64,000 nucleotides of DNA from Pegea sp. RAD2-039 (lineage: Eukaryota; Chordata; Thaliacea; Salpida; Salpidae). A program made the translations under genes and the position numbers. Below, in pieces: positions 18,528-64,000 of this stretch. The notes under the pieces are model-generated. The model was not told the DNA's origin. It ran no database searches and saw nothing but the letters and a program-made list of their open reading frames with translations. The DNA lies in assembly GCA_034620365.1 (NCBI GenBank), contig JAQGEQ010000079.1:620001-684000 (forward strand). Reading direction: 5' to 3'. The number at the start of each line of letters is the position of its first letter. The first letter of the stretch is position 1.

Positions 18528-18625
18528 ACATATATTTACATATGCCAGGGCAGAAGTTATGGAAATTCAGTTGTTGCCCATACAACTGGATTCCACTCTC
18601 CACGCCAACAATGTTATGCATCGGA
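18528..18625. repeat. Dispersed repeat B, copy 1
   Basis: Matches 40660-40752; the shared core includes CAGTTGTTGCCCAT and ATTCCACTCTCCACGCCAAC. The block around it (to about 18760) is GC-richer than its flanks and stays open for 109 codons on + and 86 on -. Those frames resemble no known protein and carry stops in the other copy. It is likely a mobile-element or retrocopy fragment. Confidence 0.6.
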
Positions 18626-35791: not shown

Positions 35792-38700
35792 TCACACAAA
35801 CAACCACTCAACAAACAAAAAGTAAACAACTAAACAAACTTGTTGGTTAGTGTTGAGAGAGAATCCAATTTGTGCAGACTCCAAACTGTTCGAAATGTTT
35901 TGTACTGCTCTTCCTTGCAAATAATTAAATTTAAATTTAAAACAAGTCACTAAATTTTCTTATCAATAAATTTAGAATACTTTAAGGGCTGTATAAAAAA
36001 TATTAAATTACATTACAGATATATGAAACCATAAATTATAATAGATTATATCATTGTAAACAGAAATTATAAATATATAAATTTTAAAAACTAGATTTAA
36101 AGTTAAACCTTCTAGAGTCACAGTGTAAACCATTTTCTTCAGTCTTTCAACTATCTGATCCAAGGCATCAAAGTCATCAACTAAAAATACTCTTTCGTCT
36201 GAATCATCACCAGATGTTATCATCTAACAATATATAAAACAACAACTTAATATATATCAATAAAATCAAAGCTTTACTTTTAGTTCTTCTTCATTGACAG
36301 ATTTCCCAACACCAACAGCAAAAATAGTAATATTATGTGAACGGATCTTTTTTGATATCTTTGGTAAATCTCGAGGCTTTGATGTTCTGTATTTAATCAA
36401 ATAGTTAAGTTTTTTCGTCGATCATAGATGCCTTGAAATTAAAATGCTACGTTGAAGACTTTCAATATTTCATTAATAATTAAAAATAGAAAAGAATATA
36501 TTAAGAAATATATTATTCAATTTATTTTTTTCTATAGTTGAAAAAAACATAGTACGTCAAAACTATTTGAACTTTAGTTAGAATTGTAAATAAGTAATTA
36601 AATTTAAGTTATATAGGTTAGAAAGCTCTTATTATTTAAAGTAACTTAATGTTAAAACCTATTTTTCGTAATTTCGATACAAATAAGTAAATAATCAATT
36701 TTAATCACATAAATTTATTTGAAGGCTTAAATTAACTGCTATATGTTAATAATATATATTGATTTTAAATGGTTGTTGTGATCGATTTCGTAAATCAAAC
36801 ATAAAAAATTGATTGCTACAAATATCAATGACCTTCCATCAGTAAGAAGAATTATGACTCTTGCAACACTCCTACTTCCCCAGCTATCAGATGCTTTAAA
36901 ATCCATTAAAGTTTTGTCTAAAGCTTCAGCAGTGTAGGTTGTCCCGCCATTATAGCTAATTTTTCTTACAGCATTCTACAAGAACAGAAAACTCAAAAAT
37001 TATTTAGCTAAAATTTATGAGGCTGTCTTATAAATGTTTTAACTTGGATTATCTTTCTTTTTGAATCAAAAACATTGTGATAAACTCAACTAACTTTAAA
37101 ATCTTTCTCATTCTTATATCTTCCTAAATCTATTTCAGTCTTGATAAAGAATTGCTCATTCATTCTACAAATTATAGTTTTTTTAAAAACATTAATATAA
37201 GATTATTAAATAGAATAAAAACAGAATAATTTTAAAACAGATAAATAAAACTTTTTAGATTACTAACGGTAAACTTGAAATAAAGCTTGAATACTGAATG
37301 ACACCCAAGTTTGTAAATACATTTCTGCTAGCATCGAAAAACTGGTCAGCTAACAAACTTGTCCAATTCTTAACTTGTTCAAAACCTTTTGATCTTACTG
37401 ATGAAGATCCATCAAGAACAAACATCAAGTCTAGTTGATCAGGACGGCAGTCTTTAAAAAATATTTGTTTATGATAAATTGTTTACTTAGATTTGTTATC
37501 AGCAAAATATAATTAGAATGTAATATTATCATAACAATACCTACTAACCAATAAAATACAATTAAAACTAGATAAAATAATATGTTTTTAAACTTCTGAA
37601 GAAAATACATTCAAAAATTATTCAAAGCTTACGAGCTTTTTGCAGCATTCTTTCCCACTTATATCCGTTTGAACTTTTAAAGCAAGATCCAGGAGTAAGA
37701 ATTGAGTTTGAACACCTAACTTCACTGTTTGAAGAACATGACTAAATAAAAACAATTTTAGTGAGTCGTTGATTAGATAATGAATCTTGAAATTTGAATA
37801 AAATTATCAGAATATTTCTAATTCTCTTAACTTATCAGATTTGATTTTTCTATAAGAAGTTTGTTAATTTTTTTACATATGCCAAAAGGTTTAAATACAT
37901 TGATTTAATAAACCATATTTCTATGGTTTTTTAGTCCTTAAGTATTTCTTTAAAAATACTTTCTTCTTGATTACTTTTAAAATTTTGTTTATTTGTCAGT
38001 TTATAAATGGCTTACAGTGAAAAGCATAAAAATATAATGTCAATCAGTTTAAATAGTTTATTGCAGTTTATACAATAGTAATTTTGTATAAACAAACTAA
38101 AAGAACCAATGCACAACTTTTTTTATTTAATAACTAACTATAATGGTTCCATTGTTAAATTGGTCGGCTACTTGCACAAGGAAAAAGTCATCTGTAGATC
38201 GGTTTGAATTAAGAGAAAATGACTGATTTGAACAAGCAACTCTGTTTCCTTGTAAAGCTTTTAAATTGAAATCACAGCTGATCACTTCTCCAAAAGCTGT
38301 TAAAGTTTAAGTTATTTCAAAAAATTATATGAAAAAATTAAATCATGTAATGAATTTAATCACAAATCAAAGTTTGTAAAATCTTAAAATGTTTAAATTT
38401 ACGCTTTTCATCAAGTCGATGAAGTGCTCCAAAATCCGAAAAAGTCCTTTGTAATCCGACTATAAATCTGAAAAAAGTAATTTACAAGTTTTTCTTATTT
38501 CTTTTACAATTTTATTGAGTTATTTATAGAAATTTTGTTTATCAGAGTTTCCAAAATAGTTTATCGAAATAAGTTAATTAAACTTAAATAAAATAATATT
38601 TTTTTTAAGTTTCAGATATCAGACTAAACATTAAAACAATTTAAATATTACTTTATGGAGTTAACTTTCTTTGTAAGAACAAACGATTCACCGAATCCAA

Positions 38701-38836
38701 TTCCTAGAGACGGGATCGTACTCGCAACCAATAAAGTTTCTTCCTTTGACTCTACATTAAATCCTTGTATTACTTCAAAGATATTCAACAAAGACTGCAC
38801 TGGGAGGATATAACAAATGTAATATTTTATTAACAT
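35792..38836 (-). CDS. Mini-integrin 1: truncated integrin alpha with I (vWA) domain
   Basis: Ten exons on the minus strand, all with GT..AG ends: 38652-38836, 38403-38467, 38139-38296, 37633-37741, 37268-37451, 37095-37164, 36833-36975, 36278-36386, 36109-36223, 35792-35913. Together they encode 419 residues. Exon 1 is a signal peptide followed by GFNVESKEE...GFGESFVL, like the mature start of integrin alpha chains. Exons 2-4 hold the first propeller segment (FIVGLQRTF, here without the usual VGAP) and paired cysteines. Exons 5-9 encode an I/vWA domain with MIDAS residues DGSSS, GGTTYT and LLTDG. The linker reads TVTLEG. Exon 10 reads ESAQIGFSLN, like the integrin MSQxGFSA after the I domain, then ends in a hydrophobic VCLVVYFLFVEWLFV. 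Remaining propeller, leg and cytoplasmic parts are absent. It is probably secreted or tail-anchored; ligand unknown. Confidence 0.85.
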
Positions 38837-40659
38837 CTTACTACAGTTTAAATGCTGAAAAATAAGAAATAATAGTTAATATAGTTTTTACTAGTAGATA
38901 ATAAAAATGAAAATCTACTAAACTAACTGCTAAAAAGACTAAAAAATTATATAAAGGTTTTATAAGATTTTATAATAGTTATAAGAATAGTTTAAATATT
39001 AATAGCTATAGCTGAGAAAAGTTTATAAATTATTTATTCATAGCCTTTTATATTTTGTCTAAATATTAAATAAAAATAATTATTTTGAAAAAGTTGAATT
39101 AAATATAAATTAAGTACTTTTCCAAGTTTGTTTGTCAAATAAACAATTTAATTGATTTTATCGTTATTTAACCAAAATAAATCAAAAAAAGATAAAAACT
39201 TACAAAAAATTAAAGAATTGAAAAAATAATAAATAAAATAAAAAATATAAATAATCACACAAAAGTTTACCAGACTTTAAAAATGAAGGTTACCAAAAGA
39301 GTAGAAGAAGAGTATTCTTGTGTATGAAATTTATCAAATTTAAGAGCTTGCTTCAAAATTACTTTACTGCTTAGGTTTTTTTATCGTAAATTAGTTTAAC
39401 TTTTGTTTATATTCGGTAATTAACAAAAGCCATTTGAATCCAAAATAATTCAATTTCAATTAAGATATACTTTTGTTTAATGAATTCATGAAATATGTAA
39501 ACTTTCAAAACTATCTTTGAGGTGATATTTAAGTGTGCAGCTAAAGTAATTTTAGCAACATCAAGTTACATTGAGAAAAATACTTTCTCTAAAATATTTC
39601 TCACTTGAATATTACTTTGAATAAATTAAGGTGAGTATAAATTAGCTTAATTCGCTGTAAAAGTTTCTACTTATGCTACAATGTACTAAAACCTTACTTT
39701 TTCTTCATGGTTTTTAACTTAAAGAAGATATATATAAAGATTCCTGTAAAAATCAACACAAAGTTAATTAATAACTTAAGTATTAAGTACGAATATTGTT
39801 GTATAAGCATATCACACAGCCTCGATTGAAAGCAAAACAAAGTTTTTAGATATAAATTAACCAGAAGGTAATCAATATCACCAAATTTTTTTTTCTTTTT
39901 TTGCAACCTTTTATGATAAAACTTTTTCAGTGTTTTAATAATAATTTATATAACCACAATATACATAAATAAGCTAGATATAAACCAAACGTCGACCATA
40001 TTAAGATCGTTGAAACTAAACTAACAAATAAAAAACCAGCTGATTATGATTTTTGATGAGCTTTTAATACGTCTAATATTTATGTTAAGGATTGTAATAT
40101 TTACGGGTGGATCTTCACAACAAAGAATTAGTTACTATTCGACGTATTTGTATTTTTTTATAATTTTGATGTTACTTTTTCAACTTCAAATTTGCTTGAA
40201 ACTTTTAGTAATTCAATTCAGCAGTATCGACGTTGAACTTAAATATGTTTAAAAACATTTATCGCTCAAAGTTTAAAAAATACTTTTAGATTGCTGTCCT
40301 TTATATTACACACGGTCTAACAGTTGCGTTAGGTTGCTGTCTAATCAATCAAATGAGTTTCAAAAGATAAAATCTCAGCCGCTCCAGTTCAGAAATACAT
40401 TTTGCAAGGCTTTTCAACTCAAAATTGCTTTTGACATTTATGCTCAAATTTTAGATTTTTTATTTAATGAAACTATTTTGTTAATATTATACATCGAAAG
40501 GTTTCTTCAAGTTGCTATTTAGATTGGCAGAAGTTAAATATAAGTTGAAGATGAGCTGTGTAACAATTTTCTTATAAAAAAGATATTACATGAAGTTATT
40601 TATAAATAAAATTTGATATACAGTCTTACCTTTTTGACCCGCTTCGATCACAAACGCCC
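38837..40659. other. AT-rich interval upstream of mini-integrin 1
   Basis: Presumed promoter and 5' flank of mini-integrin 1 (minus strand). Short hydrophobic open frames are not conserved in the flanks of the sister genes and are not called as genes. Confidence 0.45.
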
Positions 40660-40752
40660 GAGCATATATGTGTCAGGGCAGAATTTATGGATATCCAGTT
40701 GTTGCCCATGCATCAGGATTCCACTCTCCACGCCAACCAGATCATGCAGCGG
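40660..40752. repeat. Dispersed repeat B, copy 2
   Basis: Similar to 18528-18625 in the same orientation, with substitutions and small gaps. It is GC-richer than its flanks. The interval from here to the NTF2 gene (about 40753-41788) shows nothing else recognisable. Confidence 0.6.
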
Positions 40753-41788
40753 GACAGGGTATTATCTCTACATGGTACTAAGTACCTTCTGAGCATTATT
40801 GAACATAAATAATAAGATGTCTATTGAAGTTCTTTTTTCGATCAGCATTAATGATTCTAACATATTTAACTTTCTTGTTATTTTTCTGTGCTGTAAAAAA
40901 TCTATTTTTATGAATATCAAGAGATTCTTTTTAAAAAGTATTTTTTTAATTCTCTTTCTTTAAAACAAGTAAGATAGAAAAACACTAAAATGCTTATGGT
41001 AAGTTTTAAACTTATATTTCTACATCAGTTGATGTCTTGCACTTTTGCGACTGACACAGCGGAAAAATTGACAATTTTTTGTTATATCTACATTGATTAT
41101 AAGAAACGTTGAATCCAAACTGATATAACATAGCAATACAAGTTTGTGAAATATTAAAGACAATGTGATTGATTCTGTTCGTAGTAAACCAAAAATAGTT
41201 TTTGATAAAACAACAGAATTATTTAGAAAATAAATTCAATTTGTGTTAATTTTTAGAGCTGATTTTACTAATCTTTGAACGGACTGCCTCACACACATTG
41301 AAAATAGTTAAATAAGTTCTATACATCTAGCGATTTTTTTCTACATCATTTGTTGCTTCTTGACTTTCTAAAAGATTTCAACAAAGCTTTTAAAGTATTT
41401 TTTTATTGTGCCAATCGATAAATACAAAGTACTATATTATGCAATCTTTTCCAGTTCTGCCACAAAAACTTTCAAATTTTAAAAGATGAGAATTGAAGTT
41501 TACTTAGATTGAGCAATTTGAAGTCTTTGCTCAAAAAGACTACCTTAAATGCTTCAAAGTGAATATAATTTTCTCCTACCAAAGTTTGATGGTTATTGTA
41601 AAATGTTGTTATAGAAATATTAGCTTTGTAATGAAGTCATGATAAAAAGTATGGAGCACTTATAAAAAGTTAATTGACGAAAAATCCTAGCATACAAAAG
41701 TAGCACCAAAATATTAAAAAACAACGAAAACTGTATCTGTTCAGTAGTTAGTCATCTAAAAAATGAGAGTTATTGGCAGTTGCAGTAT

Positions 41789-42313
41789 TTACTTTTTCTT
41801 AGAAAGAAAAAAATTCTGAAGTATATGTTGATACTTGTAAAAATAAAATCGAGCATCTTCCTTAGTTCGATTAAATTCAACTTTCTTTTGTTCAGTAATA
41901 ACAAATATAGTATTACAATGAATAATGAAGTAACTTCCTTCAATTAACTTGACTATAAAATCATCACGGAATTTAGTGACCGGAGAGTTTTTCCATTCAA
42001 TAGCCCCTTTTACAACTAGTTTAATCTCTTCAACTGAATCAGATCTAATTTCCATCGCATTAAAAACTATTTGTTCATGACCATAACCCATGTTGGCATG
42101 GGGATGGAAGTTTTCTAGGCCTTCTTTTATTTCTTTATGACTGCCTAAATGCAGAGGTCTCATGCATGTACCATGAATAAACCATGAGCTTTCTTCTTCA
42201 TAAAAGTTTCTGAAAGTCATTTTCGTGTTTTTCAAGATGTCAGCATAGTACTGATTAATGCGATCAGCAAATGACTCATATAAGTCCATCATATCATGCT
42301 GAAAATTAACCAT
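41789..42313 (-). CDS. NTF2-like domain protein (G3BP/NXT-like fold)
   Basis: An intronless minus-strand frame of 174 residues that is almost entirely one NTF2-like domain. FADRINQYYADIL, FRNFYEEESSWFIHG and the late YFIIHCNTIFV align with the QYY, RFYG..S..HG and Y.HNDIF positions of the NTF2 domain in G3BP and NXT proteins. The G3BP acidic, RRM and RGG parts are missing, as are FG-nucleoporin or p15-specific signs that would settle the subfamily. The ATG at 42313 is followed by a TTTTCAG sequence, so this could also be the last exon of a spliced gene. It lies between mini-integrins 1 and 2 without an obvious functional link. It may be a retrocopy; the frame is intact, which argues for use. 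Confidence 0.6.
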   Translation of the reverse strand: MVNFQHDMMDLYESFADRINQYYADILKNTKMTFRNFYEEESSWFIHGTCMRPLHLGSHKEIKEGLENFHPHANMGYGHEQIVFNAMEIRSDSVEEIKLVVKGAIEWKNSPVTKFRDDFIVKLIEGSYFIIHCNTIFVITEQKKVEFNRTKEDARFYFYKYQHILQNFFLSKKK

Positions 42314-44198
42314 CTTTAAAATGTTTCGTGACTAAAATCTAAAAAGGAAATTCAATCATTCAAAGTAAGACAAAACAAAAAATAATAATATTTTTAACTA
42401 TAAATATATAGTATATATTAACTATAAATTATCAACAAATTACAAGTAAAAGCTTTAATGCATTTAGTTAAGAAGAAAGTAATTTCAATTAGGTTTGTTA
42501 AAATATAAATTTTTAATAATGTATTTAAAGATATTTTAAGAAAAAATTTACTTAAAATATGATATTGGAATATAAATCATTTATTAATAAATGATAAAAT
42601 AATTATATAAATTTCATAAACTCATCTAAGACAAGATGAATAAAGATTGAAAATTGATCAAGTATCAACTTAAATACTATATTATTAAAATTAGTAAGGA
42701 CTTATAGTAACAATTGTCTTTCTTGTGCATTCAGTTGCTCATCAATTTTAGTTATGGATTCATAAGCTATCAGAGACAGTCTATTGTTAAACACTCATAC
42801 CCTATCTGTTTGGTATATTTTCTACCCGGTATAATCTTTCTTTTTAATTTTAAATGTATTCTCCATAGTTGCAAAAAAATCTTTCTTAGAAATAGCAAAA
42901 ATAAGATTAATTGTATACTAATCAAAGCTGTCATATAGCAGACAACCCTTATTAAACAAATTCCATATAATTTAATACTTTGTTAAAGATTAAAAAGCTA
43001 TTTATATTTAAGACTTAAATCCTAATAAAGCTAATAACTAAAAAAGTAATAAATAAAACTAGATCCATACTAACTTGAACCCAATTAAGTTTTGACAAAG
43101 TTTTTTATTCATTTTGATTAGATGAAAAAATGGAGGAACAATAATTTTATCATTGACAACCAAGGACTTATCATTATTAAAATTTAAAACACTAAATTAG
43201 ATTTTGATTAGGTTTTATAAAATATAACAACTCAAGTAGTATTTCAACATGTTTTAAGAATAAATAAATTAATTTAAGATAAATCATTCCTAGATAAATC
43301 AGTTGCTGATATATAATAAAACAATTCTATAAATTTTATGTATTTATTTAAAATAAGATGTATTAAATTTAGAAAACTATCAAATAAGTTATTTAAGTAG
43401 AATACTAATCAAGAAAAGTAAATCAAACTATCAACTTATTTCTGCTTTTTATAAAATTAAAATATTTATCTTAACAAATATAAACTACCTGTGTCTCTAA
43501 AAATTTATCTATTCACCATAAAAACAAGCAAAATTGTGAAACATAAATATATTTTATTTAATATTACCCTATTTTTTATTGAATTGACATCCACAGTCTT
43601 TCAGGTTTTGATCTTTAATCAATTCACAATATATAAAATATATATAATAAATAACTACTGAAAAAGAACTTAATTGTAAATAAAACTATAGCTCCATTAA
43701 AATACAGGAAGTAACTGGGCATCTAGTAAATGTTTAAGACAATAAACTGAAATTATAAAAACTTTTTAGCTTAGTTTCATCTTGTTTCAAATTGGAGAAA
43801 ACATAAACTGCAACTATCACTGTACAACCTTAACTGATGCTTCTAGAAGAGAGGCCGATAAAGTACAAACCGGCAAAACCATAGCTTAATTTAACTTTAC
43901 GTATGCGGCAGGTAATCTTTTGTTATATAATTCTAATTTAGTAAATAGTATTGGAAAAAAATGAATAAATAAAAATTCAATAACTGGTTTAAAACACAAA
44001 TAAAAAAGATAAAACGTATTTTTTATAAGTATATTTTGATGTAAAATATATTTACATTAAGATTGGATTTCATTATTCGGTTTCTTTTTCAATAAGCTAA
44101 CTTTTTAAGATAAATTTTGAATTTAGTATCAAGCTTAGAGATGTGTAGAAAACAATTGTCTGAATTTATTTTAAGGAACTGTTTACAATATTTGCACG
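42314..44198. other. AT-rich intergenic sequence
   Basis: No gene, RNA or mobile-element end is recognised. A patch near 43885-43925 (TTTACGTATGCGGC) resembles a patch near 51465-51500 (TTTACGTATGCGGT), which may be shared flank sequence of the mini-integrin duplicons. Confidence 0.4.
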
Positions 44199-44312
44199 TC
44201 GATGAAGAAGAAATAAAAGTAAAGTTTTGATTTTATTGATATATATTAAAGTATTGTTTTTTATATTGTTAGATGATAACATCTGAAGATGATTCAAACG
44301 AAAAAGTATCCA
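44199..44312 (+). pseudogene. Inverted fragment of a fifth mini-integrin copy
   Basis: On the plus strand, opposite to the four genes, the end of exon 8 (GATGAAGAAGAAATAAAA to 44218), the whole of intron 8 (44219-44272, starting GTAAAG) and the start of exon 9 (ATGATAACATCTGAAGATGA from 44273) are preserved. The intron sequence itself, TTTTATTGATATATATTAA, matches mini-integrins 1, 2 and 4. Homology stops at about 44312, where reverse-transcriptase sequence begins. No upstream or downstream exon was found, so it is a non-functional relic. Confidence 0.75.
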
Positions 44313-45581
44313 ACATCTCACTATTATTAATGAGCTTACAGACAACCATGGAGGTTATACTCCTTGCGACATCATCTATCTCGATTTTGCTGAAAAATTT
44401 GATTCTGTTCCACACAACAAACTAATTACTGTCTTATAAAATTTAAAAATCAACACCTATATTACATTGAATAGAAGATTACTTATCAGGCAAAATGTAA
44501 CAAACTCGTGTTAAAAGATCTTTATCTACTTCTAGTCAAATCGCTAGTGGTGTTCCTCAGGGTTCTATTCTGGGTCCCCTTCTCTATTTGATTTTCATTA
44601 AAGACCTCATCAGAAGATTAGTAGCAGTAGATGATGTCATTGTGTTTGTGTATGCAGATGATATCAAGCTATTATCTTCTAATCCTTCAAAACTTCAAAC
44701 TGCACTACACACTGTAGAAAACTGGTCTATGAACTGGCAGCTCAGAATCCAGCTCACAAAGTCCGAGCTTATAACTTTCTCTCATAAACCTTACAGCAAT
44801 ATTCCATCAATGCATAATATTCCATTAATAATATATATAATATATAAAATTCTTATATAAAATTTAATATATATATAATATTCCATTAAGGCAAATTCCT
44901 TAAAACAATATTCTATCAATGGATTTATTGTTCAACGAATATCTTCGGTCTTAGACCTTGGTATTACCCTATCATCTAACTTTAAATGGTACAATTATGT
45001 TTTCAAAATCTTTGCAAAATCAATCAACTTTGTCTTCCTTATTATAAAGACCTTTAATTCTAAGAACCCATGCTTTCTTATCAATCTTTTCAAATTGTAC
45101 GTACATCCAATTCTTGAATACAATGTTAGTGCATGGATGCCATATCAAGTTGGTTATATAAAAAAAATCGAGTCTGTTCAGGCAACTTTTACGAGATTGG
45201 TATGCAGGAAGCTCAATAATAAATACGATAGTTATAAACATCGTCTCAGTTTCTTACATTTATATAGTTTGGAAATTTGACGGATTAAATACGACTTAAT
45301 TCTTATTTTTAAAATTATCCACAATTTAGTTGACCTTTAATTCAATGTTTTCTTTCCATTAGTCCATCCCTCAAGTTATATTAACTCAGACGATACACAT
45401 TACATCTAAATAAGCTCATATCACCTGGTACATTAATCAGAGCGAATTTTTCTCATACCACACAATTAGTACTTGGAACCAGCTGCTATCAGACAATGTC
45501 ATGTCAGAATCACTCGCGTTTTTCAAGCAGAATTTGAACTGTTATAATATTGCCGACACTGCCATTTCTAAACTGTGATTC
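44313..45581 (+). pseudogene. Broken non-LTR retrotransposon (reverse transcriptase part)
   Basis: Reverse-transcriptase sequence in three frames with stops: IIYLDFAEKFDSVPHNKLI (44369 onward, motif A), SGVPQGSILGPLLYLIF (about 44546, the B region), VYADDIKLLSS (about 44648, catalytic YADD), then DLGITLSSNFKW, HPILEYNVSAWMPY and IKKIESVQATFTRLV typical of the C-terminal part of Jockey/CR1-like elements. The 5' end, endonuclease and poly(A)/3' repeat are not seen. A small AT-rich insertion interrupts it (44813-44921). It inserted into, or was joined to, a mini-integrin fragment. Inactive. Confidence 0.85.
44813..44921. mobile_element. Small AT-rich insertion inside the retrotransposon
   Basis: The 16-base CAATATTCCATCAATG at 44797-44812 recurs with one mismatch at 44906-44921, and the sequence between is almost pure A/T with ATATATAAT palindromes. 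Removing the 109-base unit reconnects the reverse-transcriptase frame to ...INGFIVQRISSVLDLGI, so it is a later insertion with a target-site-like duplication. It could be a tiny MITE or a local duplication. Confidence 0.55.
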
Positions 45582-46190
45582 GTTTCTTTTTTATATTATT
45601 AACTTTTCTATTTTGTAATAGCTTATCCTAAATTAATTTCTTTTTAAAATGTTGTCAGTCAAAGGTCAAATTCTAAAAATCTTGTTAAATATTTTTCAGG
45701 TAGATTTATCAGATATTTACAAAAACCTTTGACAACAAGTCATCAGTTATCTGCTTAAATTGACTGCTGCTTTATTGATTCAATTCATCAACAAATCTAT
45801 AAAATCAAACAGTCTTAAAATAGTAAAAAACTACATCATAAAGTTCGCAAAGATCAAAATTAAGTAATAACTTCTATATATATGGTAAAGACCCATTAAA
45901 ATTGCTGTTATTTCAATATATGCTTCAATAAAGATTTAAATTCATTTTCTAAAGTTATAAAATGTTAAATGAATTAAAAAACAAAGCTTAAAGAGTTGAT
46001 GGAATTTTATTAAATCTTAAACATTTTTAAAATTTTTTTATTTCATTTCATTTCAACGAATTAATAAAAATCAAAACATAATTTTCAGAAAATAAGAAAT
46101 TTTACTCGTTTGAAGTGATACTCCATTGATAAATCAGTATACAAGTTGAAACACACAAGTATTTTCGAAATCATCTAGAATCATACAGTT
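45582..46190. other. Non-coding sequence after the retrotransposon
   Basis: Possible 3' UTR remnant of the retroelement followed by AT-rich sequence. I searched for the missing half of mini-integrin exon 9 here and did not find it. Confidence 0.4.
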
Positions 46191-49008
46191 TTCTCACCAG
46201 AACCATCTGTAACAAGTCAATGTAGGATAAGCATCAGAAGTCAATCAGAAGTTGTTCAAATAAATCATACCTTATATGTTGTTGATATCACAAAGCTTGT
46301 ACCAGTTTTAAGTTGACTCGATCCATTTTAATTCATCCAACCTAACTCACATTCACACAAGCAACCACTCAACAAACCAAATATAAAAAATTAAAACAAA
46401 CTTGTTGATTAGTGTTGAGAGAAAACCCGATTTGAGCAGACTCCAAACGTTTCGAAATATTTTGTTTTGTTCCCCCTTAAAAATAATTTACTAAAAATTG
46501 AAATTAACGAATATTTTCTTCTTTCAGTAATTTCTCAGATTAAACAAAAGTTTTTAAATATAGAGATATGCAATTTTACAGATGTTTTACGTGTTATAAA
46601 TACTTTATATAAATGTATTATTTCAAGATACTAACATAAACTCTATATAGTAACCAAACAGAAATTTAGATGAAAGTTCAAACATGTATTTAGAACATAC
46701 GAAACATTAAATAACTTTAATTTATAACCAAACTTTCAGGATATCTACAAGAATCAATTAAAATAAATTTAAAGTTGGAACCTTCTAGAGTCACAGTGTA
46801 AACCATTTTCTTCAGTCTTTCAACTATCTGATCCAAGGCATCAAAGTCATCAACTAAAAATACTTTTTCGTCTGAATCATCTCCAGATGTTATAATCTTA
46901 CAATAAAAAACAACTTAATATATATCAATAAAATCAAAACTTTACTTTTAGTTCTTCTTCATTGACAGATTTCCCAACACCAACAGCAAAAATAGTAATA
47001 TTAAGCGAACGGATCTTTTTTGATATCTTTGGTAAAGATCGAGGACTTGATGACCTACCAAAAATTTGTAAAATTTTCCTTACATTTTTTAATATAATTG
47101 ATCATGTATAATCATAAATCTTCATGAATGTATGTAGATAACAAAGATATCGACGAAAAAAATCAAAGTTTTAACAGAAATTTGTTGTTGGATAATTAGT
47201 TGTCAAAGTTTTCAATTTCTGCTAAATACTTTATGATATTATTTTAAAATATTATGTGACAGCATAATTATAACACGATTTACTATTTTTAATGTTTAAA
47301 ACTGGAACTCTTATTGATAAAAATTGCGAATATCACAATGATCTACTTTAAAAGATGTGATATATAAACAAATAATATCTGATATTATTATAATTATATT
47401 ATTTATTATCTGATATTATCCAGTTAGAATTCTCAACTACTTAGTTAACTATCTTTTTTGTAAACTTTGTTTTCATTTCTTCTTGTAAATTGCTAAATGT
47501 AATTTAAACGTAAAATGTAAAAGTTATTAAAAATATGAATTGACCTTCCATCAGTAAGAAGAATTATGACTCTTGCAACACTCCTACTTTCCCAGCTATC
47601 AGATGCTTTAAAATCCATTAAAGTTTTGTTTAAAGCTTCAGCAGTGTAGGTTGCCCCTCCCAAAAAATTGATGTTGGAAACAGCTTTCTACAAAAATTTA
47701 CTTTTTAATGAAAACTAATTGAGAGTATTTTACTTACATTTACTTTTATTAAATTCATTAATAACTGACAAAAAGCTTTTTTTTAAGTATGACTGACCTT
47801 AAATTTTTGAAAACCTTTGAATTTTCCCAATTTAATTTCAGTCCTTATGTTCGGTTGTTCGTCATATCTACAAATTTGCACCAATTTATGAATGAAAACA
47901 AAATTGAATAACTTTTTATTACTTACTGCATGTCTGAACGAAAATTTGAATACTGTATCACACCCAAATTTGTCTTTACTTTATTAACATTCTCAAAAAA
48001 CTGTTCTGCTAGCAGTTTTGTCCACTTCTTAACTTTCTTAAAACCTGGTTTTTTCACAGATGTTGATCCATCAAGAAGAAAGATCAAATCCAATTGATCA
48101 GGGGGACAATCTGATGAAACATTTTTAAGTTTTGCTAAATTTATTTTTAGAAAAAAAATCAGTTATAAGAGTAATAAAGAAACTTTCAAAGAAAATTATA
48201 AATCATAAAAAAATACTTATAAAACAATTTTACACATTGAGCAATTGATACAAAATATGTGATGATTGCTTTGGCTATTAAAATAAAAGTTTCAAAATCA
48301 CTGAAAGCTCACCAGGTTCGTGTAGCATACTCCTCCAGCTCTTTCCATCTGAGCTTTCATAGCATGACCCAGGAGTAAAAATTACGTTTGTACATTCAAC
48401 TTCACTACTTGGAGAACATGACTGACAACAAATGTGAAAAAAACAATTACTTAATCATGGGAAGATCAAAGTAATCATTAAGCACTTTGGAAGTTTTGCT
48501 GAATTATTAAATTACCAATTTGTTTAATTTTTTTTTTGAATATGATTGAAAAATTGGTTTTTGGATAATACTTTATTTTATTGAAGCTTTATGATTCCCG
48601 ATTTTCATTAAGAACTAACTATTATATTTTCATTGTTTAATTCATCAACTATTTGTCCGAGAGTTACATCATCCGAAGGTTGACTAAATCGAAGAAAAGA
48701 TGATTGATCCGTACAACTCAATCTATTTCCTTGGATAGCCTTCAAGTTAAAGCCACAACTAATCACTTCCCCAAGAGCTGTTAGAATTTAGTTTGTTTCA
48801 ATAAATTCGATTTACAAATTTACAAATTCTCAATTCAATTCATTTAAAGATTTAAACAGCTAGTAAAATTATAAATTTTTAAATATGAAGATTTTACGTT
48901 TCGCATCAGCTCGACGAAGCACTCCTGAATTTGCAAAGCTTTTTGGTGCTCCAACTACAAATCTGAAAAATATCTAGTTAGAAATAGTTTCTATAGCTTT
49001 TTTGATTC
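46191..49008. repeat. Duplicon, copy 1 (mini-integrin 2 exons 2-10 with introns and 3' flank)
   Basis: Nearly identical, introns included, to 57151-59963. Differences are scattered single bases and small indels. The match begins about 180 bases beyond the stop codon and ends inside intron 1. This degree of intron identity points to a recent duplication or gene conversion. Confidence 0.85.
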
Positions 49009-49267
49009 TATAAAGCTATATAGTAGATGTGGCTATATATATTGGTTGCTTATTTCCAAAATCTAAAACAACTTAAATTTACTTTATGCTATTTTTTTCT
49101 CTTTTAATAAAAAATGATTCTCCAAAATCAGTTTCTAGTGATGAACTCGTACTTGGGGTTAGTAAAGTCTCTTGTTTTGGTTCAATGTTAAATCCTTGTG
49201 TAAACAAAAAGGAACTAAACAAAAATCTTATTAGCAAGATATGGTAACTGGTGTTTTTTAATAACAT
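46369..49267 (-). CDS. Mini-integrin 2: truncated integrin alpha with I (vWA) domain
   Basis: Ten minus-strand exons: 49083-49267, 48898-48962, 48620-48777, 48313-48421, 47927-48110, 47798-47867, 47545-47687, 46946-47054, 46782-46896, 46369-46475, coding 414 residues. The ATG at 49267 is chosen because it gives a 185-nt exon 1 as in all sisters and starts a signal peptide (LLIRFLFSSFLFTQG). The propeller segment has FVVGAPKSFANSG, the true VGAP form, and cysteines in exons 3-5. The I domain has DGSTS-type MIDAS, GGATYT and LLTDG. The linker reads TVTLEG and exon 10 has ESAQIGFSLN. A one-base insertion relative to copies 1 and 3 changes the tail to VCFNFLYLVC and stops five codons earlier, so the hydrophobic tail is lost. 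It is likely secreted. No lesion is seen. Confidence 0.85.
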
Positions 49268-51705: not shown

Positions 51706-54700
51706 TCACACAAGCAACCACTTAACAAACCAAATATAAAAAATAAAACAAACTTGTTGATTAGTGTTGAGAGAAAACCCGATTTGAGCAAACTCCAAAC
51801 GTTTCCAAATATTTTGTTCTGCTTTTCCTAAAAATCCATTTTTTAAATAAAATTAAAAACTATTTTCTCTAATTAGCAATCTTCTGTGATAAGTAGGAAT
51901 CCGTGCTAACAAAAATAAATAACATAAAAAACTTAAAGTTTTTGAAAACTTAAATATAAAATAATTTTTTAAATTTAATTTTAATTCTACTAGAATTAAT
52001 TCTAACTTTTTAAAGTTAATTTTTAATAAAGCTAACTAAACTGAATTGTTCCCCTTTAATAGCAACAGTGAAAATTTTCTTTCTTAAACTTTCAATTATT
52101 TGGTTCAGGTTTTCGAAATTTTCAACCAACAAGATGTTTTCGTTTGAATGATCTTCAGAGGTTATCAACTGATGAGAACAGAAATAATGTTAAAGATCTG
52201 TTAAAATAACCAAAACTTTACTTTTAGTTCATTTTCATTTACTGATTCTCCAACACCAATGGCAAAAGTAATTATATTATGTGAAAGAATCTCTCTTGAT
52301 ATCATTGGTAAAGATTGAGAGTTTGACGACCTGAAGTTAATTAAACCAAAATTTGCCTTTGAAATTTTTACAAAATAATCAAATAGTTTTTTAGAACTTT
52401 TTAGTTTGATGTGATTAATGACATTACTTTACGTTTTGGCAGAAAATGATTTCTTAGTAACAAATATTTTTGAATTTAAAATTTATAAAGTTAAAGAATT
52501 AGCTGCCAAATAAATTGATAACTAAATGTAAATAAGTTACCGAAAATGTTTTAAACTTTTTTCTAAAAAATTTAATAATTTGACTGATAAATGTTTAAAC
52601 TTAATGAAATAGTACGTGATTGTTTATAATTGATTCTAACAAAAATATTTTAGCTTTATCTAATGATTAAATATCTACTATTGTATAGTTTAAAAGTATA
52701 AGTTACTACAATTGAAAGGCTAGAAAAGGAAGTTACAACAAATATCAACCGACCTTCCATCGGTTAGGAGAATTATTACTCTAGCAACACTCGTATTTTC
52801 CCAGCTATCAGATGCTTTGAAATCTATCAAAGCTTTCATTAGAGCTTCACCAGTAAAGGTCCCTCCTCCTGTAAAAGGTATTTCGGATACAGCACTCTTC
52901 AATAAAAAATTCGAGGTAAATTAAAGTGTCTATTTTAATTCATATTGAAAAATCTAAGAGATGAAATATTTTATTTATCTTTATATCTTTTTTAATTTAG
53001 CTAACCGTAAAATCGCTTTTTTCTTTATAAGCTCCAAGTTTTATTTCAGTCGTAATATAAGTCTGCTGGTCCATTCTATATTCAAAACTCAGTTGAAACA
53101 ATAAAAGTTCAAATAACAGAAGTAAAAATAAACGGTTTTTAAAACTTACATAAAAAATTCATAATAACTTGAATATCGTATCACACCCAAGTTTGTCTTC
53201 ACTTTGCTATCAAAAAGTTGTTCAGCTAACAAACTTGTCCAATTCTTAATATAACGAAATCCAATTGGTCCAACAGATGAGGATCCATCAAGAAGAAATA
53301 TCAAGTCCAATTGATCAGGGGGACAATCTTTTGAAAGATTTGGAATATTATTTAATATTTAACTCTACATAACTTTTGATAAAAATATTTTATGTTTTTA
53401 TACCTATTTGTATTCTATAGTTTTGAATAATTAAAAAAAAGAATTTCAAATTAAAGTTCACTTTGAGGTTAAAAAATCATTTTCTTTAAAAGTAAACAAA
53501 AAACTGCTATCAAATTAAAACACAACTTTAAAATAATTTTTAGATAAATAATATATAACAATATTATATAATAAAATAGTAAAGTCTATGTTTGAAAAAT
53601 ATTCTTGAATTCGTGGACAAATTTAAAAAGCAGAGTAATTTTAAATATCTACTTTTACATTTAATACTTTTGATAGTCAAAATCTTGATTATTTTTTTGT
53701 TAGAATCTTTAAGAAATCTTTCAAAAGTTATATTAAGCTCACCAGGCTTGCGAATTATATTTTCCCAGTTCTGTCCATCTGAACGTTTGTAACAAAAGCC
53801 AGGAAGAAAAACTGAGTTTGAACATTTTGCTATACCGTTTGGTGAACACGACTAAATAAATATTAAAATCAATTCTAAAAATCAATTAAAACTATAAACT
53901 TTGTTATATTGTAAACTTTTGCTGAAAATCTATATATAAAACGATTATTCAACAAATCAACTCTTGCATTACAAATTTGCTAAAATTATAAATGTATATT
54001 ATTAAGATAACAAAATGCTTAATATAAATTTGTGTGAAAAAAGTTAGCTTTTATTTGTTTAAATTTAAAAATTGAGCAAAATAAAAAGAAACAATATTCA
54101 TAAGCAACCACTAGCAAAGAGAAATGATAAGATGCATTTCAATTTACCGAGTGATAATATTCTGTTTTACAAATCAACTTTATTTCACTAACTATGATAG
54201 TTCCATTGCTAAATCCATCATCGATTTGCACAAGGAAAAAGTCGTCTGCAGAACCGCTTGAATTAAGAGAAAATGAATAATTTGAACAAGCAACTCTGTT
54301 TCCTTGAATAGCTTTTAAGTTAAAATCACAGCTGATCACTTCTCCAAAAGCTCGATTAGGTACTTTCGAATCTGGAAAGCTCCTAGATGCTCCAACTATG
54401 AATCTAAACATGAGTTGAAATTCTTGATATTTTAAAAGTCTATTTACAAAACTTATGTTAAGTTGGTATTAAAACACAGATTATTTATTTGGTTAAGTGA
54501 CAAATAAACGAATAACTTGCATCTTTCAGTTTACTTGTTAACACAAACTTTAAGATAACTTTAAAACAACTTGAATTTACTTTGTATAATTTCCTTGCTT
54601 TTTAAATACAAACGATTCTCCAAAACCATTTTCTAGCAACAGACTCGTAGTTGGAGTTATTACAGTTTCTTCTTTTAGATAAAGATTAAATCCCTTTATT

Positions 54701-54765
54701 ATTAAAAATATATCAAGCAAGACTTGAATCAGTAAGATGTGGTAAATCATTTTTCTTACCAACAT
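51706..54765 (-). CDS. Mini-integrin 3: divergent copy with intron loss and altered linker
   Basis: Nine minus-strand exons: 54581-54765, 54193-54403, 53743-53851, 53150-53327, 53006-53075, 52754-52896, 52222-52330, 52042-52168, 51706-51827, coding 417 residues. Exons 2 and 3 of the sisters are fused into one (intron 2 lost, with four codons). The signal peptide starts MLVRKMIYHILLIQVLL. The propeller segment reads FIVGASRSF and the I domain has DGSSS, GGGTFT and LLTDG, so the MIDAS is complete. The linker reads TVAIKG rather than LEG. The usual exon-9 donor is GG instead of GT, and a GTTTAG 12 nt downstream keeps the frame. Exon 10 ends with the hydrophobic tail VCFIFYIWFVKWLLV, as in copy 1. 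Sequence divergence is the greatest of the four, yet the frame is intact, which argues for use. Confidence 0.8.
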
Positions 54766-54916
54766 TTTACACACTGTCAACTTACTAAGAAAAGTACAAA
54801 ATATCTTTAAATAAAATTTTACTTGAGTTAAAAATGAAATAAGAACTTTTAATTTATACAAATTCAAGAGTTAATTACCGCTTCTTCTTAAAACTTGGCA
54901 CAAATCCTTGTGATGC

Positions 54917-54942
54917 ACTAACTGACTGACTAACTGACTGAC
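54917..54942. repeat. Short ACTGACTA-type tandem repeat
   Basis: Tandem ACTA/ACTG units (ACTAACTGACTGACTAACTG...) occupy 26 bases about 150 bases upstream of the mini-integrin 3 start codon, in its presumed promoter or 5' UTR. Confidence 0.7.
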
Positions 54943-56430
54943 ACGTTTTGAATCTTCCATTTTTTAATCGATTTAAATTTGTTAAACCTTTTCACGAACT
55001 TTTAATGACAATTTGACAAAAATGAATAATAAATTTTGAGGCAATTAAAGTGAATTCAATAATTTTAAAATTGAAAAACCTATAAAATAAATGTAAAAAA
55101 TATTTTCAAAATATTCGTTTAAAAATTGCTTTGCTAAATTTTTTCGGTTTATTTAGCTTTAAAATATTATTTCCTTGTTTATTTATCTAAATATATAATC
55201 TCTAATTAACATCAGTTTATTCTTTTTTGCTAATCAAAGAATCAATTTCTCAGATCAAATGGTTTAATATTAGATTTTTAAGTCAACGAATTTGACTTGA
55301 TCAAATTGTGAAAAGTTCTTCAAATATTTTTAATTCAGTTAAAGTAAATTAACAAAAGAAGATGAATAACACTTTAGATTTAGAAGGTTATTATTATACT
55401 GGCTTCGATATTGTGACTTAATTACAGTTTCAGTTCACGACATTTTGGTAAAACTTTTAATTAAATAGCCCAACTTTCCAAAATAGAATTTGTTGAGGTA
55501 AATTCGCGGTGAAAAAGACTGGCAACTTTTGATCTGCAGTATTTCATGTTTATCAATCACGATAAGAAGAACAGTTTTTCATAGAATGTTAAAATTAACA
55601 TTTTGTTAATCACTTCTTTCTGCTGATTCTAAACGACTGCTTCATCTAACTTAAAACAATATCAAAGAAATTTGTTTGGTTTGGATTAAAATAACTTTTA
55701 CCGAGACTAAGTCTTATGATTTAGCTGTGAAATTACTAGCAAAACGTGATATGACAACAAAAGTGGTACTGACAGTAAGTGAACATATTTAGAAAACACT
55801 GTTATGATACCTGTCTTTCAACACAAGCAAGAACAAACTTATTAGTTGTAGCAAGTCAAAAAATAACCATGAAATAAATCTGTTGTAACTTTAAGATTAT
55901 TACAACGTTACAGCGAAACATGTTTTTCGAGGTTAGCGTTTTAATTCATTTATTTGGTTTTACTTCAAATTGTTTCAAAATTTCTATTTACTTGGCAATG
56001 TAGTACTAATTACTAATTTTAAAGAAATGAGTTTTAATTTTTGTTTAATTATTTTAACTTTACTTACAGAAAACTTTCAGTCTGTATGGTATAATTTGAA
56101 CATTGAAGAGATGCAGACTAATAATGCTGCATTGGAGATCACCACAAAAACTCCTACAAAGTTATGTTGGCTTGATGTTGTCTATATTTATAAAATGACT
56201 CTTTGAATATCTGTAAGCTTTGCGAATATCTTAGTCACTGTCAGAGACACAATACTGATGATAAGAGTCTTTAAGGAAGAAGTCCAAATTAGTAATCAGA
56301 GAGCAGGTTATTGTGGAGAATATATGTCGGAGTTTTCTGTAAAATAATCGATTCGAATATTCGACAAAAGCTACTGATGAAATAAATTGCTCTGTAGTCT
56401 AGTGGCTTATTTCTGTCTATTTTGTTATTC

Positions 56431-56497
56431 TATTTATTTCAATAAAAGAAGAAGGGTGCCTGAAGAGAGCAACTCCCACTAACACATATTCTCACAA
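56431..56497. repeat. Dispersed repeat A, copy 2
   Basis: Partner of 601-670, same orientation. Shared core GGGTGCCTGAAGAGAGCA and CACTAACACATATTCTCACAA. Confidence 0.6.
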
Positions 56498-57150
56498 GTA
56501 ATACCAGTGGTAAAAAGATCACCGACAGCAAAGTCATCCATAGGATTTGATTTCTTCCCTTATGTGTTTAGACTCATTGTATTCTGTGAAGACGTTAAAA
56601 AGCTTAGGTTGAAAAGATCGGTTTTTTCAACACCACTAGGATATAAGTTTTTATTTTTATCATTAAGAGGTAGTATAAATGAGTAGCAGTTAAATTTAGA
56701 TTTTTACAAACTGTAGATTCTACGTGATGAGCCGTTCTCACAAATTTGTCTTTCACTAACCTCAATTTTATATTTGTTACACTTAACTTTGTAGTTATCA
56801 TTTTAGGAGTTTATGACTTTATAAGAGATGCTGTACATTAACAAACGTTAAAACGAGATTGAGTTTTAAAACGATTTTAAAAACGTTTTTAGTGGAACAA
56901 AAATTTGAATAAAATTAATCAAAATTGTCACAGAAAGACTTTAAAGAGAGATTTATAAAATTCACAAAAAGTAAACCAGAATAAAATCCAAATCATGTCA
57001 TCTTTTGCTTGTTGTTTGTATGCTTGTATAAAAGTTGATACTACATATAAAAGTTGTATTTTATCTATCTATTTAAAATATTTTCAGATATAATATCCTA
57101 GAAAAATACCCTGGAATTAACAAAACTCTTTCAGTTCTTGGTTCACAGAT

Positions 57151-59963
57151 TCTTTCACAAGAACCATCTGTAACAAGTTAATGTAGGATAAGCATCAGAA
57201 GTCAATCAGAAGTTGTTCAAATAAATCATACATTATATGTTGTTGATATCACAAAGCTTGTACCAGTTTTAAGTTGACCCGATCCATTTTAATTCATCCA
57301 ACCTAACTCACATTCACACAAGCAACCACTCAACAAACCAAATATAAAGAATTAAAACAAACTTGTTGATTAGTGTTGAGAGAGAACCCTATTTGAGCAG
57401 ACTCCAAACGTTTCGAAATATTTTGTTTTGTTCCCCCTTAAAAATAATTTACTAAAAATTGAAATTAACGAATTCTCTATTCAGCAATTTTTTAGAACAA
57501 AAAAACGTTGTTATATAGAAAGATATGTAATTTTATAATTAATTTTTAATCAGTGATTTTTAGGATTCTCTAAAGAGTGTATCGACAAAAATTGAATAGC
57601 ATCAGAAAAATGAATATGCATTCAGCATGAAATTACAAATCATTGATCATAATGTTAAACTTTAGCTGAAAATTGAACTTTACATGTATCTCAAAAAGAA
57701 TTAAAATAAACTAAATTTAAAGTTGGAACCTTCTAGAGCCACAGTGTAAACCATTTTCTTCAGTCTTTCAACTATCTGATCCAAGGCATCAAAGTCATCA
57801 ACTAAAAAGACTTTTTCGTCTGAATCATCTCCAGATGTTATAATCTTACAATAAAAAAAAACTTAATATATATCAATAAAATCGAAACTTTACTTTTAGT
57901 TCTTCTTCATTGATATTTTTCCCAACACCAACAGCAAAAATAGTAATATTAAGCGAACGGATCTTTTTTGATATCTTTGGTAAAGATCGAGGACTTGATG
58001 ACCTACCAAAAATTTGTAAAATTTTCCTTACATTTTTTAATATAATTGATCATGTATAATCATAAATCTTCATGAATGTATGTAGATAACAAAGATATCG
58101 ACGAAAAAAATCAAAGTTTTAACAGAAATTTGTTGTTGGATAATTAGTTGTCAAAGTTTTCAATTTCTGCTAAATACTTTATGATGATATTTTAAAATAT
58201 TATGTGACAGCATAATTATAACACGATTTACTATTTTTAATGTTTAAAACTGGAACTCTTATTGATAAAAATTGTGAATATCACAATGATCTACTTTAAA
58301 AGATGTGATATATAAACAAATAATATCTGATATTATTATAATTATATCATTTATTATCTGATATTATCCAGTTAGAATTCTCAACTACTTAGTTAACTAT
58401 CTTTTTTGTAAACTTTGTTTTCATTTCTTCTTGTAAATTGCTAAATGTAATTTTAACGTAAAATGTAAAAGTTATTAAAAATATGAGTTGACCTTCCATC
58501 AGTAAGAAGAATTATGACTCTTGCAACACTCCTACTTTCCCAGCTATCAGATGCTTTAAAATCCATTAAAGTTTTGTTTAAGGCTTCAGCAGTGTAGGTT
58601 GCCCCTTCCAAAAAATTGATGTTGGAAACAGCTTTCTACAAAAATTTACTTTTTAATGAAAACTAATTGAGAGTATTTTACTTACATTTACTTTTATTAA
58701 ATTCATTAATAACTGACAAAAAGCTTTTTTTAAGTATGACTGACCTTAAATTTTTGAAAACCTTTGAATTTTCCCAATTTTATTTCAGTCCTTATGTTCG
58801 GTTGTTCGTCATATCTACAAATTTGCACCAATTTATGAATGAAAATAAAATTGAATAACCTTTTATTACTTACCGTATGCTTGAAAAAAAATTTGAATAC
58901 TGTATCACACCCAAATTTGTCTTTACTTTATTAACATTCTCAAAAAACTGTTCTGCTAGCAGTTTTGTCCACTTCTTAACTTTCTTAAAACCTGATTTTT
59001 CCACAGATGTTGATCCATCAAGAAGAAAGATCAAATCCAATTGATCAGGGGGACAATCTGATGAAACATTTTTAAGTTTTGCTAAATTTATTTTTAGAAA
59101 AAAAATCAGTTATAAGAGTAATAAAGAAACTTTCAAAGAAAATTACAAATCATAAAAAAATACTTATAAAACAATTTTACACATTGAGCAATTGATACAA
59201 AATATGTGATGATTGCTTTGGCTATTAAAATAAAAGTTTCAAAATCGCTGAAAGCTCACCAGGTTCGTGTAGCATACTCCTCCAGCTCTTTCCATCTGAG
59301 CTTTCATAGCATGACCCAGGAGTAAAAATTACGTTTGTACATTCAACTTCACTACTTGGAGAACATGACTGACAACAAATGTGAAAAAAACAATTACTTA
59401 ATTATGGGAAGATCAAAGTAATCATTAAGCACTTTGGAAGTTTTGCTGAATTATAAAATTACCAATTTGTTTAATTTTTATTTTTGAATATGATTAAAAA
59501 ATTGGTTTTTCGATAATACTTTATTTTATTGAAGTTTTATGATTCCCGATTTTCATTAAGAACTAACTATTATATTTTCATTGTTTAATTCATCAACTAT
59601 TTGTCCGAGAGTTACATCATCCGAAGGTTGACTAAATCGAAGAAAAGATGATTGATCCGTACAACTCAATCTATTTCCTTGGATAGCCTTCAAGTTAAAG
59701 CCACAACTAATCACTTCCCCAAGAGCTGTTAGAATTTAGTTTGTTTCAATAAATTCGATTTACAAATTTACAAATTCTCAATTCAAATCATTTAAAGATT
59801 TAAACAGCTAGTAAAATTATAAATTTTTAAATATGAAGATTTTACGTTTCGCATCAGCTCGACGAAGCACTCCTGAATCTGCAAAGCTTTTTGGTGCTCC
59901 AACTACAAATCTGAAAAATATCTGGTTAGAAATAGTTTCTACAGCAGCACTACTTTTTGATTC
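57151..59963. repeat. Duplicon, copy 2 (mini-integrin 4 exons 2-10)
   Basis: Partner of 46191-49008. Identity runs through exons and introns and stops abruptly near 59963, after which the sequence instead follows mini-integrin 3 (54421-54765). Confidence 0.85.
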
Positions 59964-60307
59964 TTTTAATATTTCAAAAGTTTATTTACAAAACTTATGT
60001 TAACTTGGTATTAAAACACAGATTATTTATTTGGTTAAGTGACAAATAAACGAATAACTTGCATCTTTCAGTTTACTTGTTGACACAAACCTTAAGATAA
60101 CTTTAAAACAACTTGAATTTACTTTGTATAATTTCCTTGCTTTTTAAAGACAAAAGATTCTCCAAAACCAATTTCTAGCGATGAACTTGTACTTGGAATT
60201 AATGAAATTTCTTCTTTTGACTCAAGATTAAATCCTTGTATTAATAAAAAACAATAAAAGAAAAACTGCATCCGGAAAGTATTGTAGCTTATATCTTTTG
60301 ATGACAT
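57330..60307 (-). CDS. Mini-integrin 4: mosaic of copies 2 and 3
   Basis: Ten minus-strand exons: 60123-60307, 59846-59910, 59568-59725, 59260-59368, 58874-59057, 58745-58814, 58493-58635, 57894-58002, 57730-57844, 57330-57436, coding 414 residues. The signal peptide is MQFFFYCFLLIQ or starts 12 codons earlier at the ATG 60307. The propeller segment has FVVGAPKSFADSG. The I domain has DGSTS, GATYT (with the first Gly replaced by Glu) and LLTDG. The linker reads TVALEG, followed by ESAQIGFSLN and the short tail VCFNSLYLVC. Exons 2-10 are almost identical to mini-integrin 2, while the end of exon 1 (FGESFVFKKQGNYTK) and intron 1 follow mini-integrin 3. No lesion is seen. It is likely secreted. 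Confidence 0.85.
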
Positions 60308-63398: not shown

Positions 63399-64000
63399 TC
63401 AAGATTCTCCATTCTCCTTTCGGTACCTCTTCCAAAACTTCTTCACCTGATCATGAGCTTCTCGCGTTACAACCATGCATCTGGTCATCGAGTTGTCCCA
63501 GATTAAAGCTCCCAAATCCTAAAGAGGAGATTAAAACATTATCAGGTGATGAGGAGGTCACCTTGGCGTGCTTCTTCAACTTTTCAAAGTCTTTCTGAGC
63601 TAAAAATTGGTTATAAAGAACTCCATCACGAAAACTCAAACGGTCACGTTCCATTGCCCACAGACGAATCTGATCAGCTAGAGTTGGAGCGATGACAGGA
63701 TCCTATCAGTAGGGATATTGCAAAGATCATCTGCGGATGTTGACCTTACTTCTTTCAGCATATCAGGATGAGCATTTGCACGGATGTAGTGTAAGATTTG
63801 ATCCGCTGTAATTCCATTCACAACCGCCGTCTGTACGCTCTCTCTCGTGATTTGCATCACGCAAAGATTTGGGAATCTGTTGACATCACATTGGATGATG
63901 ACGTCACAGTCGACGATGACGTCACTAACCTGTACATCATCTCACAGAAGAGTGACAAAATCCGAAACTGGAGTTCTGAATCTGAAAGAGTGGAATTAAG
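63399..64000 (-). CDS. GTF2H4: GTF2H4 (TFIIH p52 / Tfb2), C-terminal part
   Basis: p52 is a core TFIIH subunit that anchors and stimulates the XPB ATPase and binds p8 (GTF2H5) through its C-terminal domain, in transcription initiation and excision repair. Visible exons: 63930-63981, 63750-63876, 63562-63702 and 63399-63518, stop TGA at 63399-63401; the gene runs off the window. Introns are 53, 47 and 43 nt with GT..AG ends, the upstream one starting at 63982. Motifs: [69 protein letters not shown], then after the last intron [28 protein letters not shown]. All follow the family order. Apparent frame breaks vanish when the short introns are removed. This locus is GC-richer than the rest of the window. 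Confidence 0.95.

Follow-up and report, generated by a model that had tools for sequence, protein, structure and literature searches.

Truncated, tandemly multiplied genes of probable alpha-I integrin origin in a tunicate genome

Background

Integrin alpha chains that carry an I domain (alpha-I integrins) are reported in PMC4237329 from tunicates and vertebrates only. Ciona, according to PMC1145181, possesses eleven alpha chains, eight of them with an I domain and four of those eight recent tandem copies, as well as five integrin beta chains. The LEG glutamate has been described as the internal ligand of alpha-I integrins (PMC12422189), and PMC4237329 links tunicate alpha-I integrins to complement recognition and, in the case of one I domain from Ciona, to the binding of collagen IX.

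Here, we analyze a set of short genes in a 64,000-nucleotide stretch of contig C245 (hereinafter the window, meaning the whole of this stretch). With the tunicate alpha-I integrins (Ciona alpha1-alpha8 and Halocynthia; PMC1145181, PMC4237329), these genes share an I domain with a MIDAS, inserted at the same place, and, with four of the Ciona genes, multiplication in tandem; however, the Ciona chains are described in PMC1145181 as full receptors with transmembrane and intracellular domains, whereas the short genes lack blades 3-7 of the propeller, the leg, the membrane span and the tail. The similarity to the leukocyte integrins alpha-X, alpha-M and alpha-L (PDB chains) begins at the pre-I cysteine linker and extends in one piece across the I domain as far as the GFS strand, but these are full heterodimeric receptors and the short genes stop at the first strand of blade 3. 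Secreted vWA proteins such as collagen VI resemble the short genes in having MIDAS-like vWA domains and in secretion, which is predicted for the short genes, possibly with a similar mode of action, but contain several vWA domains or collagen repeats and lack the integrin N-terminus, the pre-I linker and the LEG/QIGFS continuation.

The host is marked as a tunicate by a match to cellulose synthase in its genome (E 1.4e-5, 28.8 bits, cut-off 24.7) and, about 1.7 kb beyond it on the same strand, a GH6 match (E 1.2e-4, 27.5 bits, cut-off 27); PMC6523144 reports CesA in all tunicate genomes and not in other animal genomes. Given that the host is a tunicate, I-domain integrins are expected in it, and what is new is the truncated and multiplied form. 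The literature searched, which covered few subscription papers, yielded no description of a truncated alpha-I family of this build, in line with the initial annotation, whose author knew of none.

Four short genes with a common exon plan

Splice models place four minus-strand genes (c1 to c4) within positions 35,792-60,307 of the window. The coordinates and the single exon plan proposed in the initial annotation were confirmed, except that exons 2 and 3 are fused in c3. The genes and their exons are as follows.

35792..38836 (-), mini-integrin gene c1, 10 exons, 419 residues including the read-through tail; splice model, no stops
38652..38836 (-), c1 exon 1: signal peptide, start with GFN, opening strands of blade 1; splice model
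38139..38467 (-), c1 exons 2-3: remaining blade 1 (VGLQ, GEVISC) and start of blade 2; splice model
37633..37741 (-), c1 exon 4: blade 2 / pre-I cysteine linker (SCSS..C..GSC); splice model
36109..37451 (-), c1 exons 5-9: vWA/I domain with MIDAS, LEG at end; splice model, Pfam
35840..35913 (-), c1 exon 10: linker behind the I domain plus first blade 3 strand (QIGFSLNTNQQ), read-through stop at 35792; splice model, alignment
46369..49267 (-), mini-integrin gene c2, 10 exons, 414 residues; splice model, no stops
49083..49267 (-), c2 exon 1; splice model
48620..48962 (-), c2 exons 2-3: blade 1 (VGAP) and start of blade 2; splice model
48313..48421 (-), c2 exon 4: pre-I cysteine linker; splice model
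46782..48110 (-), c2 exons 5-9: I domain, LEG at end; splice model, Pfam
46402..46475 (-), c2 exon 10: QIGFSLNTNQQ; splice model, alignment
51706..54765 (-), mini-integrin gene c3, 9 exons, 417 residues, donor shifted 12 nt; splice model, no stops
54581..54765 (-), c3 exon 1; splice model
54193..54403 (-), c3 fused exon 2/3: blade 1 (VGAS) and start of blade 2; splice model
53743..53851 (-), c3 pre-I cysteine linker exon; splice model
52042..53327 (-), c3 I-domain exons, IKG in place of LEG; splice model, Pfam
51754..51827 (-), c3 last exon: QIGFSLNTNQQ; splice model, alignment
57330..60307 (-), mini-integrin gene c4, 10 exons, 414 residues; splice model, no stops
60123..60307 (-), c4 exon 1; splice model
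59568..59910 (-), c4 exons 2-3: blade 1 (VGAP) and start of blade 2; splice model
59260..59368 (-), c4 exon 4: pre-I cysteine linker; splice model
57730..59057 (-), c4 exons 5-9: I domain, LEG at end; splice model, Pfam
57363..57436 (-), c4 exon 10: QIGFSLNTNQQ; splice model, alignment

All four copies encode, in this order, a signal peptide (called by eye), an N-terminal propeller part, a cysteine linker, a vWA/I domain with MIDAS, an EG linker and the segment QIGFSLNTNQQ, followed by a stop. Once the exons are joined in consistent phase, none of the four contains an internal stop; there are 404 codons up to NTNQQ (402 in c3), and the proteins comprise 414-419 residues including the read-through tails. 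The penultimate exon of c3 lacks the GT donor seen in the other copies, and its donor was placed 12 nt away by eye. At the protein level, c2 is 90% identical to c4, so that these two are recent duplicates; c1 and c3 are 64% and 58% identical to c4, respectively.

The motifs listed in the initial annotation proved to be largely accurate: the MIDAS signatures DGSxS, GxTxT and LLTDG are present in all four copies and VGA(P/S) in three, with VGLQ in c1, as described. GFGESF, ascribed to every copy, is found in three (c2 has DFGESF), and of the two elements placed behind the I domain, QIGFSLNTNQQ is invariant and LEG occurs in three copies, its glutamate being lost in c3 (IKG).

The read-through tails past NTNQQ consist of 10 to 15 residues and are unlike between copies: in c1 and c3 a hydrophobic character extends across some 15 residues, and in c2 and c4 the tail has 10 residues. 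These tails may represent intron read-through. In the alignment of the copies, the DNA 3' of the last exon is still conserved for roughly 250 nt, so that an additional short last exon is possible. A blade-3 exon relic at this place was considered from the same alignment and not adopted, the stretch being too short to judge.

Other features of the window include a plus-strand single open frame of 1,496 residues at 24469-28956 with MUN, C2 and C1 domains (UNC13-like), which is intronless here; a Gpi1 match at 21593-22108 (+) and a match to the C-terminal part of TFIIH Tfb2/p52 at 63451-63699 (-); an 88-nt direct repeat (18537-18624 and 40665-40752, 84% identical, 22 kb apart); and reverse transcriptase pieces (RVT_1) between c1 and c2 at 44501-45280 (+), a close relative of which sits inside the plus-strand alpha-I gene on C215 (see below).

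Identity of the I domain and the N-terminal part

A Pfam scan (E up to 1) of the spliced proteins recovered VWA in all four, with a best E-value of 1.7e-37; the remaining matches were to VWA_2 and VWA_3 or at chance level. Neither FG-GAP nor any integrin-alpha model was among them, and collagen and EGF models were likewise absent from c1-c4, each of which has one vWA stretch. Thus, the profile check suggested in the initial annotation held for the vWA domain and not for the propeller. Given that Pfam misses the propeller part, the identity of the latter rests on profile tests and introns.

When the family profile was compared with PDB, integrin alpha-X was aligned in one piece over profile positions 132-398 with 81.9 bits, and this alignment covers the pre-I cysteines, the I domain, the EG linker and the GFS strand, against 38.4 bits for the best single collagen VI domain (two chains among the matches listed). 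Collagen VI alpha-3 comes first in the ranking by whole-chain E-value because of its many vWA domains. A relative encoded on contig C58 (L067) gave the same picture, with 80.4 bits for alpha-X over residues 113-381 and 48.7 bits for the best single collagen VI alpha-3 domain. The possibility, raised at the outset, that a non-integrin vWA family would match better is disfavoured.

For the N-terminal part, c1, c3 and c4 were scored with several HMMs. A mixed HMM of five N-termini (two relatives from C58 and C113, the alpha-I chain C215m of the same genome and two PS1-type chains) scored c4 at 39.0, c3 at 31.4 and c1 at 21.3 bits, with 9.1 for the best of 3,000 shuffles. The HMM from C215m alone gave 24.5 for c4, 10.9 for c1 and 10.8 for c3 (best shuffle 8.8), and the one from C215m and three PS1-type chains gave 14.7 for c4 and 10.7 for c3, with c1 below the matches listed and 11.5 for the best of 5,000 shuffles. 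With an HMM of PS1-type chains only, none of the three exceeded the shuffles; this test is insensitive, the control C215m also falling below (8.5 vs 10.2). HH-align of the N-terminal part against two PS1-type chains produced no match, and with an E-value limit of 1 the N-terminal part of one C58 copy alone failed to match any chain in PDB. Taken together, blades 1 and 2 appear to precede the I domain in the short genes, an assignment that is weak by the Pfam, PDB and PS1 tests. The retained portion would accordingly run through blades 1 and 2 to the point where the I domain is inserted, most clearly in L067, rather than the single propeller segment originally described.

Truncation behind the I domain

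Searching the genome (105.7 Mb, 387 contigs) for FG-GAP returned 16 matches, two per gene in eight integrin alpha genes, and none on C245 or C58; Integrin_A_Ig_1, an insensitive model with 4 matches genome-wide, was likewise not found on these two contigs. Six integrin loci of the same genome, compared with the window, matched I-domain exons, repeat sequence and, at E 0.004-0.04, a few misplaced segments; a weak match of a leg-exon frame (E 0.036) falls inside a c3 intron. Beyond such weak leftovers, no match to the genome's own blade 3-7 exons was detected in the window; in two C58 stretches, blade frames gave no match and leg exons none that was more than weak; as a positive control, blade exons of different integrins of this genome match each other. 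Inspection by eye revealed no membrane span and no GFFKR-type tail in the frames of c1-c4, which end 10-15 residues after NTNQQ. Hence, of the features of the alpha-I class, the short genes have the MIDAS I domain and not blades 3-7, the leg or the membrane span, as the initial annotation maintained, and because these parts and the tail are missing, c1-c4 cannot be ordinary integrin alpha subunits.

Longer alpha-I integrins in the same genome and shared introns

Longer alpha-I chains, which were read as open frames rather than complete splice models, are indeed encoded in this genome. On the minus strand of C215, the frames begin with a signal peptide and blade 1, continue with the I domain, further blades and a membrane-spanning segment, and close with a GFFK tail. 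A plus-strand twin on the same contig has I-domain, blade and thigh-like frames, its middle I-domain exon not being found among the open frames, and a third C215 gene was read in part. On C284 (L053), blades and a divergent I domain were recognized by eye in a locus absent from the VWA search list. Several other observations concern these loci: among L047, L048 and L045 on C215, two alpha-I genes lie in inverted orientation, with similar blade frames and different I domains; short DNA repeats reading DDVI or MTSS recur within and between the integrin frames of L053, L052 and L045; L049 (C21), L050 (C6) and a C21 twin encode PS1-like integrin alpha chains, each as one open frame of more than 1,050 residues; and intron-bearing integrin genes are found on C6 and C19 beside single-frame PS1-like chains. 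Five integrin beta loci were identified.

The C215 minus-strand gene and the short genes have six intron positions and phases in common (assigned by eye). Ahead of xxVGAP or the like there is a phase-2 intron, and a phase-0 intron is located one residue N-terminal to the CSP cysteine. The intron that immediately precedes the I-domain cysteine is in phase 1, the one behind the QY region of this domain is in phase 2, and the glycine of EG is interrupted by an intron in phase 1. The sixth position is a donor in phase 0 that follows the first blade 3 strand. Given this last shared donor, the end of the short genes coincides with a boundary between exons in the longer one. The first two of the six introns are also present in the PS2-like gene L051; introns after LLTDGR and EELK are confined to the short genes, and one after the TYT segment to C215. 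In the I-domain tree, the short genes are not joined with C215, a collagen VI domain is placed on a long branch beside them, and the deep forks are open. Descent of the short genes from an alpha-I integrin, with subsequent amplification, as first proposed, is well supported by the presence of these longer chains, the six shared introns and the lack of blade exons in the short genes.

The family beyond the window

Among the 150 of 211 VWA candidates of the genome that were scored, four MIDAS exons are located on C245, all inside the window, and at least 15 on C58, between 265 and 414 kb, which suggests at least 19 short-integrin genes on the two contigs. The family described initially as four genes, a count that stands for the window, is therefore larger, with an array of the same kind on C58. 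All 11 C58 loci with short flanks contain the MIDAS, TDG and VGVG motifs, and the tail pattern is seen in 2 of the 11, the flanks ending there. In L067 every part of the plan is present as an open frame; in L054, among frames of at least 45 residues, the signal, I-domain and tail frames were seen. The LEG glutamate is retained in all nine C58 copies in which the respective exon was found (10 examined). A locus near 345.9 kb on C113 encodes an N-terminus and an I domain as in the short genes and is integrin-like, and weaker matches are scattered over C237, C132, C21, C141, C236, C35, C42, C29 and C57. The vWA stretches on C14, C46, C262 and at two C113 loci were set aside, as inspection by eye showed EGF, CCP, TSP1 or collagen-like repeats in them.

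Across ten C58 copies, the MIDAS loops show a 3.9-fold higher density of amino-acid differences (pN 0.135 vs 0.035), and silent differences are denser there as well (0.176 vs 0.066); the site-count test gave p 0.077, with loop limits drawn after the sequences had been seen. We regard this loop diversity as a hint, of which gene conversion could be the cause. Blocks around the MIDAS loops look reassorted, as by gene conversion, between copies L010-L023.

Constraint and alternative explanations

Pairwise dN/dS values (Nei-Gojobori) range from 0.36 to 0.51 in the six pairs of c1-c4, from 0.28 to 0.44 for the part N-terminal to the I domain and from 0.33 to 0.71 from the I domain onward, the top value belonging to c2/c4, a recent pair with few differences. 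This pattern argues against decay. That c1-c4 are decaying pseudogenes left behind by tandem duplication might be suspected from the loss of the donor and the LEG glutamate in c3 and of a part of the parent gene, but with intact frames in all four copies and dN/dS well below 1 in all six pairs, it appears quite improbable. Still harder to accept is an unrelated secreted vWA family of the collagen VI or matrilin type that would resemble integrins by chance: the one-piece match to alpha-X with the pre-I cysteines and the post-I strand, the six introns in common with C215 and the N-terminal profile scores of c1, c3 and c4 all speak against it, so that we consider it extremely unlikely even though collagen VI alpha-3 has the best whole-chain E-value among the PDB matches, Pfam recognizes only vWA models, and a collagen VI domain is found beside the short genes in the tree with its open deep forks.

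Two further alternatives concern the 3' end. The last exon ends where a blade-3 exon follows in C215, and the DNA beyond is conserved, as would be the case if c1-c4 were longer integrins with later exons missed; we deem this very unlikely, given no FG-GAP match on C245, blade exons that match each other and nothing in the window, and the start of the next copy only about 2.4-2.6 kb downstream of c3 and c4. The hydrophobic read-through tails of c1 and c3 could also be thought to anchor the proteins in the membrane, making them cell-surface adhesion proteins, but the tails of c2 and c4 are just 10 residues long and two C58 tails differ again. Such tail anchoring, entertained in the initial annotation, is unlikely and was not adopted, given that the tails are short, differ between copies and may be read-through. 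Our preferred reading, which we consider reasonably probable, is that c1-c4 are constrained genes derived from an alpha-I integrin, truncated after the I domain, multiplied in tandem and encoding secreted, MIDAS-dependent ligand binders; its observed basis is gene structure, constraint, shared introns and no detected blades downstream.

Possible function

The proposed course of events is that an alpha-I integrin gene was cut at the exon boundary behind the I domain and then multiplied in tandem. The product would be a secreted protein of about 400 residues in which blades 1 and 2, the integrin N-terminus as far as the I insertion, are followed by a MIDAS I domain; the signal peptide and the absence of an evident membrane span suggest secretion, and the intact MIDAS suggests metal-dependent ligand binding. 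The soluble I domain would then bind an extracellular ligand via the MIDAS metal, and the short protein could act as a recognition or matrix protein or as a competitor of full receptors. A decoy, adhesion or allorecognition role, as put forward in the initial annotation, is conjectural. The retained LEG glutamate may contribute to I-domain stability or to contact with a beta subunit in trans. More speculatively, and with considerable doubt, the short integrins might constitute a diversified soluble repertoire, the C58 differences being mostly around the MIDAS face, with a role in opsonisation, in self/non-self recognition or as alpha-I receptor decoys, perhaps engaging beta subunits in trans via LEG.

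A multiplied, constrained, truncated form would mean that the ligand-binding part of an integrin was uncoupled from its receptor and came to serve as a protein in its own right. The short genes provide a natural test of an I domain that has no leg, membrane span or closed propeller, and they are candidates for a family of soluble recognition proteins in the group most closely related to vertebrates.
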